DNA from: Muriicola soli
GTDB taxonomy: Bacteria > Bacteroidota > Bacteroidia > Flavobacteriales > Flavobacteriaceae
Direction: 5' to 3'
NCBI RefSeq assembly: GCF_004139715.1
Contig: NZ_CP035544.1
Span: 62,001-126,000 of the forward strand
DNA: 64,000 bases
Under the pieces are notes generated by a model. It was not told where the DNA came from. It did no database searches and was given only the letters and a program-made list of their open reading frames with translations. Made by a program: the position numbers and the translations under genes. Of this stretch, positions 1,732-12,910 are shown one piece after another (position 1 is the first letter of the stretch; each line of letters opens with the position of its first letter).

Positions 1732-2493
1732 ATGAAAAAAGTAGTAGTTTTAACAATTGCTCTCTGTTTGAGTGCCTCAATGTTCAGTCAGCGTAATGAC
1801 AATAACGAGTATTGGAATACCTGGCAGTACAAAGCAAAAGATGGTATGCAGCAAAAATTTGAAGAAGCTGCGGCCAAGAAGACCAACATGTTCAACACCT
1901 CCCCGGAAACGGCAATTGTTACCTATCGCTTTATTGATGGCCCAAATGCCGGAAGTTACATGCGAATCGAAGCCCGGAAATCTCCTTCAGACTACGATAA
2001 AGACCGTTCTGCGGAAGGCAATTACTGGAGGGATAACGTCAGTAAATATATAGCCAATAATGGCGGACAGGTAAGATGGCAACTCCTTAACGGAGGTACC
2101 ATAAATTATGACCCTGAAAATCCGGCACCTCCTGCCAAATATGTCAAGATGATCACTTTTAATGTGAAAGCTGACGGAGTGAGGGCGTTCAGGAGGTGGA
2201 TGTACAGAGCTTCCAAAGTCATCGAAAAGAGAGGCAACAAAAACCCGAGGATGCTGTTCAGACTTGAGAGTGGAGGGAATCGCAACCAGTTTGTGCTGGC
2301 TTTGCCTTATGAAAGCCATAAAAGGACGGATCCTCCCAGGGAGAATGAAAATACTTGGCGTGAAGATTATGATGAACTCTTTGGCTGGGGAACCTTTGAG
2401 GAAGATGGAAAAAATATCGACGCCTCTCTGGAATTCTGGGGTGAGCAAGTAGAAACCCTGCAAATGGTGCCGGAAATGTCTACCAAAATATAA
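1732..2493 (+). CDS. Secreted protein of unknown function
   Basis: 253 residues. Starts MKKVVVLTIALCLSASMFSQ, a clear signal peptide cut after FSQ. The mature protein appears to have two related halves: residues ~28-120 begin WNTWQYKAKDGMQQKFEEA, and residues ~138-250 begin YVKMITFNVKADGVRAFRRW. Each has a strand, then a basic amphipathic helix, then a strand (VTYRFIDGPNAGSYMRIEA; NQFVLALPYESHK), which resembles a duplicated ferredoxin-like (dimeric alpha-beta barrel) arrangement. I do not recognise the family. It is monocistronic: ~210 bp of AT-rich DNA upstream and a terminator 24 bp downstream. No Shine-Dalgarno site is visible before the ATG, as is usual in Bacteroidota. Confidence 0.7.
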   Translation: MKKVVVLTIALCLSASMFSQRNDNNEYWNTWQYKAKDGMQQKFEEAAAKKTNMFNTSPETAIVTYRFIDGPNAGSYMRIEARKSPSDYDKDRSAEGNYWRDNVSKYIANNGGQVRWQLLNGGTINYDPENPAPPAKYVKMITFNVKADGVRAFRRWMYRASKVIEKRGNKNPRMLFRLESGGNRNQFVLALPYESHKRTDPPRENENTWREDYDELFGWGTFEEDGKNIDASLEFWGEQVETLQMVPEMSTKI

Positions 2494-2516
2494 CAACTAA
2501 TAAATACGAATAAAAT

Positions 2517-2548
2517 AAACCTCGCTTTATGCGGGGTTTATAGTTTTA
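2517..2548 (+). terminator. Rho-independent terminator of the 1732-2493 gene
   Basis: Stem aaacctcgc/gcggggttt (one G-T pair), loop tttat, followed by atagttttata. It begins 24 bp after the stop codon. Confidence 0.6.
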
Positions 2549-2639
2549 TAACGGTAGAACTGGGGGCATCATTAATTTAGTTACATCTTTTAAAATCATT
2601 TCCAAGATGGAATATTTGCCCTCCATTTTGCCCTTATAG

Positions 2640-2659
2640 CCTGCCTGCCGGCAGGCAGG
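2640..2659. repeat. Perfect 20-bp GC palindrome
   Basis: cctgcctgcc followed by its exact reverse complement. It sits inside tRNA copy A between the D-arm residues TAG and TTCAACGG. REP-like: a short, perfect, GC-rich inverted repeat in AT-rich surroundings. Confidence 0.8.
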
Positions 2660-2671
2660 TTCAACGGATAG

Positions 2672-2689
2672 CCCCGATAGCTATCGGGG
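2672..2689. repeat. Perfect 18-bp palindrome, first copy
   Basis: ccccgatag followed by ctatcgggg. Placed directly after ggatag of tRNA copy A, where the intact tRNA has aata. The same palindrome recurs at the homologous place in copy B. Confidence 0.85.
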
Positions 2690-2721
2690 GAAGTTTCCTC
2701 AGTGGACAAGAAATCAATTCG

Positions 2722-2800
2722 AAAAGTATTCATAAATTTGCCTCCCATTTTGGCCTCATAGTTCAACGGATAGCCCCGATAGCTATCGGGGGAAGTTTCC
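2722..2800 (+). pseudogene. 5' half of tRNA-Arg(CCT), copy B, with promoter box and palindrome
   Basis: Positions 2722-2773 are identical to 3090-3141 (52 nt). The copy therefore includes the last codons plus stop of the GIY-YIG gene, the TAAATTTG promoter box (2733-2740), and tRNA nucleotides 1-22 (2752-2773). The palindrome ccccgatagctatcgggg then replaces aata, and the copy ends with gaagtttcc (2792-2800) inside the anticodon loop. There is no 3' half, so it is a non-functional tRNA fragment, though the promoter copy is intact. Confidence 0.85.
2774..2791. repeat. Perfect 18-bp palindrome, second copy
   Basis: Identical to 2672-2689 and in the same register of the tRNA fragment, so it was probably duplicated together with the fragment and not inserted twice. 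Confidence 0.85.
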
Positions 2801-2818
2801 AGATCAGATCATTTAAGG

Positions 2819-3103
2819 ATGTATTATGTATATGTTATCCAGTCAGGACTCGATGATAGCTTTTATATTGGAAAGACATCGAATTTGGAAGAAAGATTAC
2901 TTTTTCACAATACACCAGAGCTAAACAAAGGGATTACAAAAAGAAAAATCCCATGGAAATATTTTTTCATACTGGAAATTGGGGATTTAAGATTAGCTGG
3001 TAAAATTGAAAATCATATCAAGAGAATGAAAAGCAGGAAGTACATACAGGATCTAAAGAAATATCCTGAAATTACACAAAAGCTTATCAAAAAGTATTCA
3101 TAA
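2819..3103 (+). CDS. Small GIY-YIG endonuclease-domain protein
   Basis: 94 residues, a single GIY-YIG domain of the UvrC N-terminal/YhbQ type. Visible motifs are YYVYVIQS (the GIY strand), SFYIGKTSNLEERLLFH (YIG strand, then the helix with conserved Arg), and a late Glu in LAGKIENHIKRMKSRKYI (metal-binding Glu). It is predicted to be a Mg-dependent nuclease with no added DNA-binding domain. The gene lies between a truncated copy and the intact copy of tRNA-Arg(CCT). Its last codons and stop are part of a 52-bp direct repeat that runs on into the tRNA. A copy of the tRNA promoter box lies ~80 bp upstream and may drive it. AT-richness is slightly above neighbours. Family membership is firm; the biological role is not known. 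Confidence 0.9.
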   Translation: MYYVYVIQSGLDDSFYIGKTSNLEERLLFHNTPELNKGITKRKIPWKYFFILEIGDLRLAGKIENHIKRMKSRKYIQDLKKYPEITQKLIKKYS

Positions 3104-3108
3104 ATTTG
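3101..3108 (+). promoter_or_regulatory. Bacteroidota -7 box for tRNA-Arg
   Basis: TAAATTTG matches the Bacteroidota -7 consensus TAnnTTTG and lies 12 bp before the tRNA 5' end, overlapping the stop codon of the GIY-YIG gene. No clear -33 TTG is seen. Confidence 0.55.
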
Positions 3109-3119
3109 CCTCCCATTTT

Positions 3120-3191
3120 GGCCTCATAGTTCAACGGATAGAATAGAAGTTTCCTAAACTTTAGATCCAGGTTCGATTCCTGGTGAGGCTA
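3120..3191 (+). tRNA. tRNA-Arg (anticodon CCT)
   Basis: Full cloverleaf by eye: acceptor GGCCTCA/TGAGGCT (G-T at the first pair), D stem GTTC/GAAT with loop AACGGATA, anticodon stem GAAGT/ACTTT with loop TTCCTAA (anticodon CCT at 3153-3155), T stem CCAGG/CCTGG with loop TTCGATT, discriminator A at 3191. No CCA is encoded. It reads AGG codons. A strong terminator follows at 3204. Confidence 0.95.
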
Positions 3192-3203
3192 CAAATAAGC
3201 ACA

Positions 3204-3236
3204 AAAGCCTTTGCGAAAAGCAAAGGCTTTATTTTT
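3204..3236 (+). terminator. Rho-independent terminator of tRNA-Arg
   Basis: Eleven-bp perfect stem aaagcctttgc/gcaaaggcttt, loop gaaaa, followed by attttt. It starts 13 bp after the tRNA. Confidence 0.85.
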
Positions 3237-3265
3237 GCGACCCGCCGAAAGAAACTTGTTTCGTT

Positions 3266-3600
3266 GAGTGCGGGGCCAAAAATAAAACCAACTGCGCATG
3301 CAGTTGAGCTTTTGTATTTTCACGATGAGGCTCTGTCAGGAACAGCGTCCGCAGAAGCATAGCGAAGCACGCTTCGGGGGCCAGCTAATCCTGGTAAGGA
3401 TGAGTGCGGGGCCAAAAATAAAACCAACTGCGCATGCAGTTGTGCTTTTGTATTTTCACGATGAGGCTCTGTCAGGAACAGCGTCCGCAGAAGCAGAGCG
3501 AAGCACGCTTCGGGGGCTGGCTAATCCTGGATTTCTCCTGAGGCCCGTACCAAAAATAAAACCAACTGCGCAGCAGTTGAGCTTTTGTATTTTCACCACA
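3266..3600. repeat. Three tandem ~137-bp repeats in the 587-bp gene-free stretch after the tRNA
   Basis: Units start with ccaaaaataaaacc at 3276, 3412 and 3550 (spacing 136 and 138). Each holds the hairpin caactgc-gcat-gcagttg (the third has lost at), then gcttttgtattttcac. Units 1 and 2 also share gatgaggctctgtcagg, the inverted repeat cgaagc-ac-gcttcg, and gctaatcctgg. The third unit diverges after tattttcacca. The open frames across it (for example 3298-3687) are repeat artefacts. The rest of 3192-3778 shows nothing beyond the tRNA terminator and the leader of the giant kinase. Confidence 0.8.
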
Positions 3601-3778
3601 AATATCTGTCGGGAGCACTGCACCTGTCCCCCTAAAAACCCCATCGGATTTATTCAGGGATTTATTCTAAAATCTTACTTATCTTAGACCATGAGCTCTG
3701 AGCACCAGAGTTGAAGACCATTACTTAATAGCTAATGGTGTTTGCTATGCTGCCAAACGTCCTCTATAACCACCACCA

Positions 3779-6700
3779 ATGAATCCATCTTCCCACGGCA
3801 GAAATATAACTGAGATCCACGCTGTTTACGAAAAAATGATCGAGGTACTTTTGTACTTCGGGCCTATTGAAAAGCTCGATGAGATCGTTCATCCGGATTT
3901 TCATGGATATGGTACCGCTGCACATGAATTTCTAAGTGACAAGGCAGCTTTAAAGAGAATGGCTAAAATGCAGGCCGAACAATTAAAGGGTACAGAATAT
4001 ACATTGACACGCAAAATCATTTTTGAAAAATTCCTCTCTGATGGTAAAAACTACTTGATCCTTGAGGATTTTGAACTCCATTTGCAGGACAATGATCACA
4101 ACCTGCCGCTCAGGCTTTCTACCATTCTAGAAAAAGTATCCGGCAAATGGTTAATTACCCACTTTCACGGCTCTACACCCGACAGTGATATAGCTGAGGA
4201 AGAGGCTTTGCCCATGGAAGGCCTGCGCAAGAAAAATGAGGAGTTGGAAGCAAAGATCAGGGAAAGGACACGGGAATTAGAGATTGAAGCCGCATTGGAA
4301 CGGGTACGTTCGGCATCAATGGCCATTCACAAAAGTGAGGAACTGCATAAGGTGGTATTAACTGTAGCACAGGAAATTAATAGCCTTGGGTTAAATATTG
4401 ATGCGGCACACCTATTTCGATTTGAGGAGGGAAATGATAAAGGATTTAATATGTGGATCGCAGGGGATGGTGGAGTTTACCCCAATGAAGTATACTTTCC
4501 ATATATCAAGCATGAAATATTTGATGGCATTTATAATGCCAGACAAAAAAACAAAAGCTTTTTTTCCATAGCTGGGATGAGTAAAAAAGTTAAAAATCGT
4601 GTGTACCGCCATCTTCTTAAAAGCGCAAACATTAATATTTCTGAGAGCAGGCAAAAATATGCACTAGGTACAAAATCGGGCGCTTATTCAATTGCGCTTT
4701 CAAAGAATTCAGGAATAGCCATTATTAAATTTTCAGAAGAAGGTGCAGGATTTGGCGAAGAGGAACATGAGATTTTAAGGCGATTTTCCAACGTTTTTGA
4801 ACAAGCTTATATCCGCTTTTTAGGTTTGGCTAATGCCGAAAAACAGGCCCGGGAAGCACAAATACAACTCGCACTTGAACGGGTTCGGGCCAGGTCTTTG
4901 GCCATGCAATCCAGTGATGAATTGCATGAGGTCTTGGGGGTATTATTCAGACAGTTTGATGATCTGGGCATACAGCCGGTGAATGTGTTCCTAAGTCTTT
5001 TTGATCGTGAGCAAAGAACCCTTACCTACAGGGCATCGGGTAAATCGGGGAAACGAATGCCGGGGAAGCAGGTGGTGGAAGTAGATAGCATGGAGGCACT
5101 CCGGGCCCTGTACGACAAATGGCTTACGGACAATTCCGATACCGTTGAAGTGATCTTTTTCCCCAAAGAAGTATTGTCCCAACTTTTTGGCATTTTTTCC
5201 GAAACTTTTTCCTCCATGCCTAAAGAAGATCGCATGGGACCCGAAGACTTTCCCGAAGGAGGTTATTCCATGGCGGGGTACACCCCTTTTGGTTACCTGG
5301 GCTATGACCATCAAAGGCCGGCCACGGATGAAGAAAAGGAAATCCTAATCAGATTTTGCGTTGAATTCACAAGGGTATACCAACGATTTTTAGACATACA
5401 AAAAGCGGAAGCCCAGACCCGGGAGGCACAGATTGAAATGGCTCTTGAAAGAGTCCGTTCAGCCTCCATGGCCATGCACAAAAGCAAAGATCTTCATGAT
5501 GTTTTGGTGATGTTGTACAATCAATTGGCTTCGCTGGGATTGAAGATGCACTCGGCCCAAATAATCGAATCTATTGATGACCCAAAAGAAATGCATATTT
5601 GGATAGTCACCAATGGTGTGGTTTATTCGGAACAGGTTCATGCACCATTCTCTAAAAATATATTTTTCAAACGTTTCAGGGAAGCAGTAACCAATGGGGA
5701 ATCATTTTATACACTAAAATTTTCGAAACGCCAGAAGGATAATTTATTTCATCACTTTTTTGATAATACCATACTTAGAAATGCGCCTCAGGCAAGAAAA
5801 GACCTCATCTTTTCCAGCCCTGGCCTGGGAACATCTAATGCAATGGGGAAATATACCTCCTTGTCAGTAATGCGCTATGATGGGATTCTGTACAGTGAGG
5901 AGGAAAATGAAATCATTAAACGTTTTGCTAAGGTGTTAGAGCAGAGCTATACACGTTTCCTCGATATCAAAAAAGCGGAAGCCCATGCCCGGGAAGCACA
6001 AATTGAAGCGGCCCTGGAGCGGATTCGATCAAAAGCAATGGCAATGCACAGTTCTGATGACCTTGCCGATACCGTGGAAATACTCTATAAAGAACTAGAT
6101 ACCCTCCAGGTGCATGCTTTAAGATTTGGACATGCAAAATTAAACGCGGATACCAAAATAGTTGAATTACATACGGCTACGGATTTAGGGAAAGTGGTAG
6201 GTCAAATAAAACTTGAAGGCCATCCGTTACTGGAAAAGATATATAAAAATTTTCTGGCAAAAGAAGATTTGTACTATGCCCTTCAGGGAGAGGAAATGAA
6301 AAGCTATTACTCAATCTTAGGCCGCGCCATTGACGTACCGATACCACCTATGGATACTGTACAACACGGCTACTTTTTCTTTTTAAAGGACACCGCCAAT
6401 TATGCCTGGTCTGACAAGGCATTAGATGAAGAGGAACTCAAAATTTATAGAAGATTAATTACGGTGTTGAACTTAACGTATAAACGCTACGAAGAGCTAA
6501 AGAATGCAGAAACCCAAGCCAGGGAAGCACAAATTGAAGCTGCTCTGGAAAAAGTACGGTCACAGTCTTTGGCTATGCATAACACCAGTGAAATGCAGCT
6601 GGTAGCCAATGCGGTTTTTGAGCAGCTTCAGGCCTTGGGCATGGAAATGGATGTCGTAGGCATGAGCGGGATCATTGAGGCTAAACAGGACTACGATGTC

Positions 6701-9700
6701 TGGATAGGGGGTGCCCCTTTGGGATCGGCTTTGCGAATTCCCTATAACGAGGATACTCAGGTACAGCGCGATTACAATAAGATGCTTAAAGACCGGCCGG
6801 AACTCTTCGTCAGAACCTATTCTGGCCAGGTCAAAAAGGAATACATCGACCGCCTGCTAACCCACGGGGAATTTCCGGAAGCACTTAAAAAAAAGATGAA
6901 AACTTCTGATGCTTTCACCACCATGATCGCCCCGAAAAAGAATTCCGGCATTCAGGTAGTGCATTATTCGGATCAACCTTATACTGATCAAGATGCGGAG
7001 ACACTGAAACGTTTCGCCGGAGTTTTTGAGCAAGCCTATATCCGATTTATGGATCTGGAAAAAGCAGAAGCACAAGCCAGGGAAGCAGAAATAGACCTGG
7101 CCATAGAACGTATTCGTTCTCAGGCGATGGCAATGAAGGAATCCTCTGAATTACTTGATATAGTGGTGACCATGCGCAGTGAATTTATTCGTCTCGGCCA
7201 CGAAGCACATTATTTCTGGCATATGATGTGGCTACCGGATAAATACGAAAAAGCAATGACCTCCGGGGATGGAAAACGGATTGGCATGGTCATGGAATTA
7301 CCCCGTCATCTCCATGGCGACATCAAATTATTGGCAAACTGGGAAAAGAGTAAGAAGCCTTTAGTAGTTTATCCTATGGATGCTGAGGCGGCTATTGACT
7401 ATGTGGACAAGATGATCAATCTTGGCGATTTTAAACAGGTAGATCCCAACGCCCCGAGTCATGATGATATCAGGCATATTGGAGGCCTTACCTTTATCAT
7501 GGCAAGAACAACCCACGGAGAGATCGGTTACAGTTTACCGGGTGTGGTAGAACAGCCCCCTGAAGAAGATTTATTTATCCTTCAACGATTTGCAGGGGCT
7601 TTCGATCTTGCCCACCGCCGTTTCCTCGACCTGAAAAAATCAGAAGCCCAGGCACGTGAGGTTGAAATAGAACTGGCATTGGAAAGAGTCAGGGCCAGAA
7701 CTATGGCCATGCAACACAGTGATGAGTTGCAGGAAGCTTCCTTTTTATTAGATGAACAGGTACGGAAACTGGGTATACAAACCTGGGGTTGCGCCTTTAA
7801 TATTTACAGGGAAAAAGACTCCATTGAATGGTTTGGAAATGAAAAAGGTATTCTACCAACTTATACTGTTCCAAGAAAAGGAATTTTTAAAAAGTACTAT
7901 GATCTGGGACAAAAGGGTTCCCAACTGCACATTCAGGAATTCAAAGGAGCCAAGTGTATAGCACATTATGAATACATGAGTACCCTGCCTGTAATAGGGG
8001 ATGTTCTCAAGCAACTAAAAAAAACAAATGGCGCTTATCCCGAATATCAAATAGATCATGTGGTGTACTTTAAGTATGGGTATCTATTATTTATAACCAC
8101 TGAACAAGTGCCGGACTCGCATGATATTTTTAAACGCTTTGCCCAGGTATTTGAACAGACCTATACCCGTTTCCTCGATCTTCAAAAAGCAGAGGCCCAG
8201 GCAAGGGAGGCAAAAATTGAGACCGCACTGGAAAAAGTGCGTTCCTGCTCATTGGCCATGCATTCCACAACGGAAATGCAGGAGGTAGCCAACGAGGTTT
8301 ACGAACAACTCCAGAATCTAGGGCTGGAGTTGGATGCCGTGGGGATGAGCGGGGTCATTGAAGCAAAAAACGATTATGATGTGTGGATAGGAGGCTCCAC
8401 TTTTGGACAAGCCCTGCGGATTCCATTTAATGAAGACACGGAGGTACAGCGTGATTACAACAAAGCCATTGCGGAGCGAGTAAAGTTGTTTGCCAGGACC
8501 TATTCGGGAAAGGAGAAGGAGGAATATACTAAGCACTTACTCAAGCATGGAGAGTTCCCCGGCCCACTTAAAAAAAAGATGAAAACTGCGCCGGCTTTTT
8601 CAACCTCGATATCGTTTTCAAAATACTCCAGTATTCAGATTGCTCGTTATACAGACGAGCCTTATTCAAAAGAAGAGAATGAGATCCTACAGCGCTTTTC
8701 AAGAGTTTTTGAGCAGGCTTACATCCGTTTTATGGATCTCGAAAAAGCAGAAGCACAAGCCAGGGAAGCCCAAATTGAAGCTGCTCTCGAAAAAGTGCGA
8801 TCCAGGACCATGGCGATGCAGCGAAGTGAAGAATTGCCGGAAGCCGCCAATACCCTTTTTCTGCAAATACAGTCTTTAGGAATTCCGGCTTGGAGTGCGG
8901 GGTATTGTATTTGGGAGTCCGAGGATAAAAAATTCGCTTCCTGTAATATGAGTAGCGAAGGGGAACTCCAAAAATCATTTAGTCTGCCAACTATAGGAGA
9001 AGGCTATAATTTTTATGACCCTATAAAAAAGGGCGACACGTTTTATGTGGAGGAGTTAGGAGGTGAAAAACTGGTAAAGCATTATGAGTTTATGCGCACG
9101 CTCCCTACCGTTGGAGAAATATTGGATGAATTGCTAAATGCAGGTTTATCACTACCGACATTTCAAATATTTCATATCCTCTATTTCCCACAGGGTTACC
9201 TGATGTTCATCACCTATGAACCTGTACCTAAAGCACATCCTATTTTTAAACGATTTGCCAAGGTTTTTGAGCAAACGTATACCCGTTTTCTCGATCTGCA
9301 AAAAGCAGAAGCACAAGCAAGGGAAGCACAAATTGAAGCGGCTCTGGAAAGAATCCGTGCCAAATCTATGGCTATGCATTCATCAGATGAATTGAGTGAT
9401 GTACTGGAAGTGCTTTTTGAGCAGTTTGTGATTTTGGAAATAAACCCGGTATTCGCTGTTTTAAATCTGTATGATTTAGAAAACGACACATTTACCATGC
9501 GGGTAACCGGTAAAAACGGCGCAAAAGTCATCGGAACACAAACGGTAAAGTTTAGTGAAAATGAAATCTGGAAGGATTACGGAGAAAAATTCAGACAGGG
9601 TACTCCTGATATGATTAGCGATCAATTCTATCCTGCTGAAATTTTACCAGATGTTTGGGAAATTTTAAAAGATCTTGTACATGCAGTTCCTGAAAAGGTA

Positions 9701-12700
9701 AGGCCTTTACCATCAGATTTTCCAGATGGCCTGTACAATATTGAAGGGTATTGCACTTACGGAACCATAGGTTGTAATCTCAACCGTCCGCCAACAGAAG
9801 AAGAGAAAAATATTGTAATAAAATTTGCTACCGAATTCGGGAGGCTCTACCAGCGCTTTTTGGATATTCAAAAAGCAGAAGCACAGGCCAGGGAATCTCA
9901 GATAGAGGCAGCATTGGAAAGAGTACGCAGTAGAAGTATGGCCATGCATAAAAGTAGCGAAATGCTAGATTTAATTAAAGTTGTCTCTGACCAATTGAGA
10001 GGACTTAATTTAAATTTTGACTCAGTTAGTTTTGCAAAAAATGATGTGGAGGGGGCTTTTACTTTTTGGCTAAGCTCAAAGGGGCAACCCCAACCTATAT
10101 TGATGGAAGTGCCACCTATTGACAGTCGGGTAATGAATAGCGTTTACAGCGCTAAGAAAAATGGACTTAGATTTATTACAGATGTATTTTCAGCCGCAGA
10201 AAACAAAGAATGGAGTAAACATCTCATTAGATATACCCAACTAAAGCAATATCCGGAAACCATAAAAGAATTTATTTTGACGGCATCGGGTTTTGCCCGT
10301 TCTAGCTTTTTCTTGAAGAATATTGACCTGTATGTTGTTAACTACAAGGCGATCCCTTTTACTGAGGCAGAAAATTCGATTTTCGGAAGGTTTGCACAGG
10401 TGTTTGAACAGGCCTACACCCGCTTCTTAGACCTGCAAAAAGCAGAATTTCAGGCGAGGGAAGCTCAGATTGAAGCGGCACTGGAACGGGTTCGTTCCAA
10501 AACCATGGCCATGCATAACAGTCAGGACGTAGGAGCAACCGTTGTCACCTTATTTGATGAGGTCAAGAATTTAAATCTGGAAGATTCCATACGTTGTGGA
10601 ATAGGCATCCTGGAAGGAAATGAAAAAATGGAAACCTGGTCTGCCAATGCTACGCCTGGAGGAAAGGTAGAGTTAAAATTGGGGATGCTCGATATGACGA
10701 TACACCCTATGCTGGTGGGAGTAAAAAATTCGTGGAAAAGGGGTAAGAAAGGATATACATATGAATTAAAGGATGGGGATGTCAGGAATTATTACAGCAA
10801 GCTCAATGCGGAACCTGAATATTCCTTCACCGTGGATCTGGATACCTTACCTGATAAGATTTACCACAAGAGTTTTGTTTTTTCTGCCGGAATTCTTTTT
10901 GCCTTTACAGAGAATGCAATATCCGAGGAGGGATCAAAGGTGTTGGAACGGTTTGCCGGGGTTTTTGGACAAACCTACAGACGCTACCTGGATCTGCTGA
11001 ACGCTGAAAAACAAGCTCGTGAAGCACAGATAGAAGCTTCTTTGGAACGTATTCGTGCCAGAGCTATGGCCATGCACCATACCGACGAATTGACCGATGT
11101 ACTCGGAGTGCTTTTTGACCAATTTGATTCCCTGGGGATCAATCCTGTACTCACTCACCTGACGCTCTTCGACGAAGAAAACGAAACCTTTACGCTGCGT
11201 ATTACGACAGGGGGGAAGAAACGGGTCATTGCCGAACAGTTGATCGACGTAAATGCAGTGGAAAGCTGGAAAACTTCCTTTGCCAACTGGAAGAAAAGTG
11301 AGATGCATGCCATAGACTTTATCGAATACCCCCCGGAAGTACTTCCCGCAGTATGGGAATTACTCGATGAGGTTATGTCTGCCCTACCCGAGGAGAATAA
11401 AATTTACCCGGAGGATTTTCCCGATGGCTTGTATACCACCCAGGGACATTGTAAGTACGGATATATTGGTTTTAACCACAACAGAAGGGCAACCGAGGAG
11501 GAAAAAGATATTGTGATCCGCTTTGCCAAGGAATTCGGCCGACTCTACCAGCGTTTTCTCGATATCCAAAAAGCTGAATTACAAGCCAGAGACGCGCTAA
11601 AGCAAGCTACGCTAGACAGGGTACGCGGACAGATTGCCAGTATGCGTTCTGCTTCAGACCTGGAACGTATCACCCCCCTGATTTGGAATGAACTCACCTT
11701 CCTGGAGATTCCATTTATTCGATGCGGGGTTTTTATCATAAATGAATCGAACAAAACAGTGCAGGCATTTTTATCGGCACCGGATGGACATTCCCTCGGC
11801 GCTATGCAGATTCCATTTAAAGCCGATAAGGTTACAGCTGCAATTGTAGCGCACTGGAAAAAGGGTGAGGTATTCAGAACACACTGGGATAAGAAACAGT
11901 TTCTTGAATTTATGCAGTTGATGGTAGACCTGGGACAGGTGAGTAATAAGAACGAGTATCAGGGAGCCGAACAACCCCCGGAGTCGCTCCACCTTCATTT
12001 TGTACCCTTCACCCAGGGCATGTTGTATGTAGGAAATACAGAATCTTTAGAGGAGGAACAGATCGAATTGGTAAAAACCCTTGCTGATGCCTTTGCCATT
12101 GCCTATGCGCGGTATGAGGATTTTGTCAAATTGGAGAAAGCTAAAGAACGGGTAGAGAACACACTGGAAGAGCTCAAGGCCACGCAGAATCAGCTGGTCC
12201 AATCGGAAAAAATGGCCTCATTGGGTGAGCTTACGGCCGGGATTGCCCATGAGATCCAGAATCCGCTCAATTTCGTCAACAACTTTTCGGAAGTGAGTGT
12301 TGAACTCTTAGAGGAAATGCAGGAGGAGATGGATAAAGGTGACCTGGAGGAGGTGAAAGCCCTGCTGGATGATATCAAACAAAATCTGGACAAGATTGCA
12401 CATCACGGCAAAAGGGCAGACGGCATTGTTAAAGGGATGTTGCAACACAGCAGAGCCAGCAGCGGGGAAAAAGAACTTACAGACATAAATATCCTGGCCG
12501 ACGAATATCTGCGCCTGGCCTATCATGGCCTGAGGGCCAAAGACAAGAGTTTTAATGCTACTTTGGAAACCGACTTTGACGAGTCCATAGGGAAGGTAAA
12601 CGTACTTGCCCAGGATCTGGGCCGGGTTATTTTAAACCTTATTACCAATGCGTTTTATGTGGTAAAAGAAAAGTCATCCCACGCTAAAGCTTCGGAGGAT

Positions 12701-12910
12701 TCTAACTATATGCCTACAGTAACCGTAAGTACAAAGAAATCTAAGGCAGGAGTAGAAATAAGGGTAAAGGATAATGGCAATGGAATTCCCGATGAGATCA
12801 AAGAAAAGATCTTTGAACCTTTCTTCACTACCAAACCTACCGGGCAGGGTACAGGACTGGGATTAAGCATGAGCTACGATATCGTTACAAAAGGGCATGG
12901 GGGGAATTAA
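3779..12910 (+). CDS. Giant soluble sensor histidine kinase with SnoaL-like domain and 14 repeated sensor modules
   Basis: 3043 residues, no signal peptide or membrane segment, so cytoplasmic. Order: SnoaL-like (NTF2 fold) domain ~5-135; coiled coil; then 14 modules of ~185-195 residues. Each module opens with a helical linker of the type [20 protein letters not shown], starting near residues 168, 365, 555, 745, 921, 1107, 1299, 1483, 1669, 1855, 2044, 2234, 2420 and 2609, and closes with RFxxVFEQxYxRFLDLxKAE. The folds between look GAF-like, but I cannot name the family. Then come a coiled coil, a HisKA domain with phospho-acceptor His2824 ([12 protein letters not shown]), and HATPase boxes [10 protein letters not shown] and GTGLGLSMS. 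The frame stops right after the last box at a G6 run (12899-12904). One more G would restore [20 protein letters not shown] and a stop at 12979-12981, 3 bp before the next gene. Receivers for it are probably encoded downstream. Confidence 0.85.

Follow-up and report, generated by a model that had tools for sequence, protein, structure and literature searches.

The window, i.e. the whole stretch of 64,000 nt of Muriicola soli DNA analysed here, contains a single tRNA gene, tRNA-Arg(CCT), located by ARAGORN at 3120-3192 on the plus strand; the Rfam tRNA model agrees, with an E-value of 1.3e-13. Two truncated copies of this gene, fragments A and B, are situated upstream on the same strand, and both stop at the anticodon, as described in the earlier note. 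A GIY-YIG nuclease gene of 94 aa (2819-3103, plus strand; PF01541 E 4.5e-11) occupies the space between fragment B and the intact tRNA, likewise as described. The two 5' halves had been stated to flank this gene, but both are upstream of it, with the intact tRNA on its other side. The promoter region of the intact tRNA (3090-3119, plus strand) overlaps the nuclease 3' end and contains TAAATTTG at 3101-3108, a promoter element of the TAnnTTTG type of Bacteroidetes. Its first three bases double as the TAA stop codon of the nuclease (3101-3103).

Fragment B (2752-2800, plus strand) consists of tRNA positions 1-22, the palindrome CCCCGATAGCTATCGGGG (2774-2791) and tRNA positions 27-35, so that its homology ends within the anticodon (34-36). 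It is preceded by a promoter copy (2722-2751, plus strand) with TAAATTTG at 2733-2740, inside a direct repeat (2722-2773 = 3090-3141) that proves to be exact, as the earlier note had it, with 52/52 identical positions. This 52 bp repeat extends from tRNA position -29 to 22 and covers the end of the nuclease ORF, the promoter and tRNA positions 1-22. In front of fragment B, an in-frame remnant, KFPQWTRNQFEKYS (2691-2735, plus strand), matches the nuclease tail KYPEITQKLIKKYS and represents the last 14 codons and the stop of a deleted older nuclease copy, with 83% identity to 3058-3141 over 84 nt. The idea of a lost earlier nuclease is borne out by a genome of the same genus (G005), which has a full unit at this place.

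Fragment A (about 2629-2699, plus strand) contains two palindromes. The first, CCTGCCTGCCGGCAGGCAGG (2640-2659), is a 20 bp insertion between CATAG and TTCAACGG, and its position is conserved in G005, G006 and G002. The second (2672-2689) is again CCCCGATAGCTATCGGGG, here in place of AATA of the D-arm; this 18-mer has only these two occurrences in the genome. The promoter region of fragment A, AATATTTG (2611-2628, plus strand), is decayed, with 22/26 identity to positions -15 to 10 of the intact tRNA. The view that both truncated copies bear promoters is to be corrected in this respect.

Directly 3' of the tRNA terminator, a 136 bp direct repeat (3265-3617) comprises two copies that are almost identical and an incomplete third one. 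A small inverted repeat, AACTGCGCATGCAGTT, lies in each of them, and G005 (L008) has a similar repeat after its tRNA. Further downstream, a single ORF of 3043 aa (3779-12910) consists of many similar tandem segments joined by linkers of 14 residues and ends in a histidine-kinase-like region.

The orthologous site of G005 comprises two complete units, each made up of a tRNA 5' piece, a hairpin and a GIY-YIG gene, followed by the intact tRNA. The first piece has both palindromes and the second just one, matching the window. Because G005 has both units with the same palindrome layout, fragments A and B of the window are read as a two-unit array minus its first, deleted nuclease. The two-hairpin layout of fragment A is found at the orthologous sites of G005 and G002, its first hairpin also in G006. 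A truly empty site was sought within the genus and none was found: the G006 site has one tRNA piece left, without nuclease, the G003 site only a nuclease tail ahead of the tRNA promoter, and the G002 site tRNA pieces on both sides of the tRNA. On this evidence, the site is of long standing in the genus, and several species show it in decay.

Linkage of the nuclease to tRNA genes in Bacteroidota

At a cut-off of E 1e-12, a profile of nine tRNA-linked proteins matches genomes of the window's family (230 of 397) and of its phylum (195 of 395). Named hosts include Flavobacterium, Psychroflexus, Salinimicrobium, Algibacter, Xanthomarina, Winogradskyella, Gillisia, Leeuwenhoekiella, Marinoscillum and Roseivirga. 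From Bacteroidota genomes, 247 loci (231 non-redundant) were examined. The earlier note had suggested looking for GIY-YIG genes beside tRNA 5' fragments in relatives. A tRNA gene is located at most 500 bp from the nuclease in 200 of the 231 loci, a fraction that belongs to a sample weighted to the best-scoring relatives of tRNA-linked seeds and not to the whole subfamily. Nuclease and tRNA are on the same strand in 200/200 cases, and the linked tRNAs comprise 22 anticodons for 13 amino acids. Among the remaining 31 loci, 15 extend to the end of a contig, and the majority of all 31 retain tRNA fragments. An Rfam scan of the loci without an ARAGORN tRNA yielded one SAM-I/IV riboswitch, which is unrelated.

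The units occur in two forms. The 5' form, the type of the window (42/200 loci), consists of the tRNA promoter, a hairpin-bearing tRNA 5' part and the GIY-YIG gene, followed by the intact tRNA, whose start is a median 12 bp past the nuclease domain. The 3' form is its mirror (154/200 loci): the intact tRNA, separated from the nuclease by a median of 57 bp, is followed by the GIY-YIG gene, a hairpin-bearing tRNA 3' part and the terminator. In four loci, the tRNA sits between nuclease copies. Both forms are also found at one tRNA in L080 (G120:C3), where four tandem copies of the promoter with tRNA-Arg(TCT) positions 1-27 precede the intact gene, and 3' fragments with two nucleases follow it. 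Units are about 0.3-0.4 kb long with the nuclease as their sole ORF. They form tandem arrays with a spacing of 315-391 bp and up to six or seven copies; five or more copies are present in G170 (391 bp), G204 (381 bp), G348 (355 bp) and G717 (315 bp). The earlier suggestion of a small duplicating unit of nuclease and tRNA start, tied to a tRNA, thus finds its counterpart in tandem repeats of exactly such units. The palindromes in the fragments, the mirror form with 3' fragments and the breadth of the family are additions to that note.

Beyond the nuclease, as seen from the intact tRNA, part of that tRNA is repeated in 173 of 191 loci tested, versus 0 of 173 control regions 500-700 bp away. In 5' forms, the homology begins with the promoter and stops around the anticodon; in 3' forms, it begins around the D or anticodon arm and includes the tRNA end with its terminator. 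An exact 52 bp repeat in the window, together with a partial tRNA at the matching place in most homologous loci, is far beyond chance. Chance proximity of nuclease and tRNA is ruled out by the strand agreement (200/200) and the control regions (0/173).

Most units have a palindrome within the tRNA piece. The hairpin motif [TC]CCCG[AC]...CGGG is found in 118 of 200 fragment regions and is non-canonical in the other 82. Its density is 4.6 per kb in fragment regions versus 0.088 per kb in the flanks, a 53-fold enrichment. The stem is nearly constant (TCCCGA/TCGGGA in 89/151, CCCCGA/TCGGGG in 42/151), with a loop that varies by tRNA lineage. As exact 16-mers, the commonest palindrome has 10 copies in the M. 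soli genome (control pattern 0), two of them at the window locus and two in tRNA-Leu fragments; it is more numerous in a few genomes, with 34 copies in G045, some nested in each other. Since exact copies occur away from the units, the palindrome is also a dispersed REP-like repeat, and its candidacy as a mark unique to the unit is rejected.

Several further occurrences of the palindromes were encountered. In L145, L146 and L147 (G045), palindrome copies are inserted within palindrome copies, as expected of a mobile REP-like repeat. The loci L136 (G000:C1:225360) and L137 (G000:C1:348271) possess the palindrome CCCGATAGCTATCGGG inside tRNA-Leu 5' fragments beside an intact tRNA-Leu; being without nuclease, they are probably decayed units of the window's kind. 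L338 (Flavobacterium, G892) contains tandem near-complete tRNA-Asn copies, called as tRNA-Asn by ARAGORN, without nuclease, in which two TCCCGATAGCTATCGGGA hairpins stand in place of the variable region and of part of the T-loop. In a dense array of 11 tRNA genes (L117, G058:C1), the same palindrome is located at or beside the expected D-arm of tRNA-Pro(TGG).

Dispersal of the palindrome in some genomes, and the fact that tRNA genes are known integration sites, speak for a hot spot at which the fragments are mere scars of tandem duplication or integrases, with REP-like palindromes landing in them. We regard this explanation as very improbable and largely refuted by units of about 0.3-0.4 kb that encode the nuclease alone, by strand agreement in 200/200 loci, by fragments in 173/191 loci against 0/173 controls, by nuclease lineages specific to tRNA isotypes and by a hairpin enriched 53-fold at one place.

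The nuclease and the history of the units

The window protein possesses a PF01541 GIY-YIG domain with the catalytic residues Tyr, Tyr, Arg and Glu. Among 100 diverse homologues, S9, Y16, R26, W46, E64 and K68 are invariant, and Y5, G18 and H30 are conserved in more than 90%. The structure model of the 94 aa protein reaches a pLDDT of 96.6. By sequence and fold, its nearest relatives are UPF0213 proteins (1ywl, 1zg2) and SLX1, a structure-specific nuclease, with weaker similarity to I-TevI and UvrC domains. A separate DNA-binding domain is absent from the nuclease, which counts against a site-specific homing model. Values of dN/dS have a median of 0.115 over 290 comparable pairs, none of them at least 1, and indicate purifying selection; a stop codon lies within 24 of 312 nuclease domains. 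The nuclease is thus maintained, catalytically intact and presumably active.

The earlier note had named a nuclease gene of this kind without link to tRNAs as a case that would speak against its reading. Such genes were met in other subfamilies only. The nearest solved relatives of the unit nuclease, UPF0213/YhbQ-like and SLX1 proteins, have its catalytic residues. Unlike the Bacteroidota units, the UPF0213-like homologues examined on alphaproteobacterial and cyanobacterial replicons, and the loci L014, L017 and L021, are not beside tRNAs. An origin from phages or plasmids was considered and rejected: the sequences used as queries, two family members by tblastn among them, gave no match to phages or viral contigs, and the plasmid matches belong to other subfamilies, the four examined being located away from tRNAs.

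When tRNA type is mapped on a tree built from 194 nucleases, 43 changes are needed, compared with 115 for shuffled labels; the form requires 12 (38 shuffled) and the host genus 124 (152 shuffled). According to these counts, nuclease lineage is tied more tightly to the tRNA than to the genus. Some switches occur, exemplified by Met and Ala members at 73% identity. The window nuclease belongs to a clade of six with 99% SH-aLRT, all of the tRNA-Arg(CCT) 5' form.

With one nuclease lineage per tRNA type, and with fragments that point in the direction of tRNA transcription, would form a stable hairpin as RNA and are in some instances nearly full-length pseudo-tRNAs, the units might be thought to encode a tRNA-cutting nuclease with an RNA decoy, the hairpin fragment being its inhibitor or sensor in a toxin-antitoxin or defence-like system. 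Among proteins of solved structure, however, the closest are DNA nucleases (SLX1) or UPF0213. Fragments vary in the half kept, many are unable to fold as tRNA, and tandem copies with graded decay fit DNA copying better; we consider an RNA decoy quite improbable.

The arrays have a polarity. Among 41 arrays, similarity to the intact tRNA is higher for the closest fragment in 28 and for the farthest in 5, and 8 are ties. This is consistent with new units arising at the intact tRNA, but retention of an older flank by the outer pieces would bias the result in the same direction. Presence and absence of the unit at one site are observed in Flavobacterium, where a tRNA-Asn site contains it in G520, G871 and G822 and lacks it in most other genomes; the flanks are strongly diverged, and filled and empty states are compared at the level of the site, not base-exact. 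The comparison with empty sites proposed in the earlier note is realised here, but not in the window's genus. Near-identical units in different genera were not seen, the best cross-genus DNA identity being 82%. Recent horizontal transfer is therefore not claimed, and much of the inheritance of units may be vertical.

Vertical inheritance is also central to a SegB-like local amplifier without homing, in which breaks expand and contract the tRNA-nuclease segment in place and thereby vary tRNA dose or repair tRNA genes. It would account for the tandem arrays, for the loyalty to a tRNA isotype and for the lack of recent transfer across genera, and SegB is a precedent for segmental amplification. 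Nevertheless, most repeated units hold only broken tRNA, so that tRNA dose does not rise. The mirror form, the 22 anticodons and the switches of tRNA type (43 changes; Met/Ala at 73%) need relocation, and units are present or absent at sites within one genus. Local amplification alone appears unlikely to us.

Comparison with known systems and proposed mechanism

The stand-alone GIY-YIG enzyme SegB of phages T4 and T6 resides, like that of the Bacteroidota units, beside tRNA genes of many types and is the closest precedent. In phage T6, cleavage by SegB and recombination between a tRNA 5' region and a segB 3' region give rise to tandem tRNA-segB segments, and segB genes are enriched beside tRNAs (PMC13096335). 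segB has been located between tRNA-Arg and tRNA-Ile, and several phage homing nucleases have upstream hairpins (PMC2988022). The Bacteroidota units differ from SegB in being chromosomal, in encoding a UPF0213/SLX1-like protein of 75-95 aa, in carrying a broken, hairpin-tagged tRNA copy, and in their strict strand rule and isotype loyalty.

As in islands that integrate into tRNAs, a tRNA gene serves as the site, part of a tRNA is carried, the intact gene is rebuilt and a fragment is left. The units differ from integrase islands in their 5' or 3' forms, their arrays, the hairpin in the fragment and their size of about 0.4 kb instead of kilobases; the units examined contain the nuclease ORF only, and no integrase. 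With REP/RAYT systems they have in common a conserved short palindrome that is tied to a single nuclease gene and dispersed as well. The palindrome of the units is within a tRNA copy, and their only gene is of the GIY-YIG type, not an HUH/Y1 transposase.

Group I introns insert at the anticodon loop of tRNA genes, and the position of their insertion in bacteria, near the anticodon, resembles that of the units. Such introns in bacterial tRNA genes, some of them with homing endonucleases, are described in one study (PMC3984707). The units differ in that they possess no intron or splicing, the tRNA being rebuilt at the DNA level; an Rfam scan of window positions 2400-3700 for group I intron RNA found none, the tRNA alone scoring above the gathering threshold. 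Like that of a free-standing homing endonuclease, the nuclease gene lies outside introns and inteins and adjacent to what would be its target. Judged from sequence, the unit may function like a free-standing homing endonuclease or a SegB-type amplifier, with putative cleavage and over-inheritance.

In our opinion, the units are probably homing-like selfish elements of about 0.4 kb that live in a tRNA gene and rebuild it, although we hold this with some reserve, as cleavage and spread are inferred. The simplest reading of the anatomy is an insertion of the nuclease and the missing tRNA part into a tRNA gene. The SLX1/UPF0213-like nuclease would make a break in its own tRNA gene where homology ends, close to the anticodon or the D-arm, and homologous repair would copy the nuclease and, along with it, a part of the tRNA gene. 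One end would thereby regain a working tRNA, and the other would be left as a hairpin-tagged fragment. Because the regenerated tRNA would be a target again, arrays would grow beside the intact tRNA. The nuclease is read on the strand of the tRNA, and the tRNA promoter or its copy is the probable source of its transcription. The nuclease probably recognises or processes the hairpin, whose stem TCCCGA/TCGGGA is found throughout the phylum, or else the hairpin stops the fragment from acting as tRNA or target; in 5' forms, it might alternatively control translation. A counterpoint to the selfish-unit model is that the intact neighbouring tRNA should stay a target, which the host would have to tolerate. 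Further points against it are the dispersal of the hairpin in some genomes, its non-canonical form in 82 of 200 loci and the weighting of the sample to high-scoring relatives.

Tentatively, and with more doubt than conviction, we propose a new class of mini-elements, in which an SLX1-like nuclease recognises the TCCCGA hairpin and breaks the tRNA gene, and in which repair rebuilds the tRNA, with one tRNA per lineage. No description of such units was found in the open-access literature, the scope of our search.

If this interpretation is right, about half of the Bacteroidota genomes would hold a minimal, apparently undescribed selfish unit on essential tRNA genes, and many genes annotated as 'GIY-YIG family' as well as odd tRNA pseudogenes of Bacteroidota would be explained. 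The conserved hairpin would open the recognition step to a direct test. The units would then be a chromosomal counterpart to the amplification by phage SegB, and a natural model of a drive-like element able to mend the very essential gene that it breaks.
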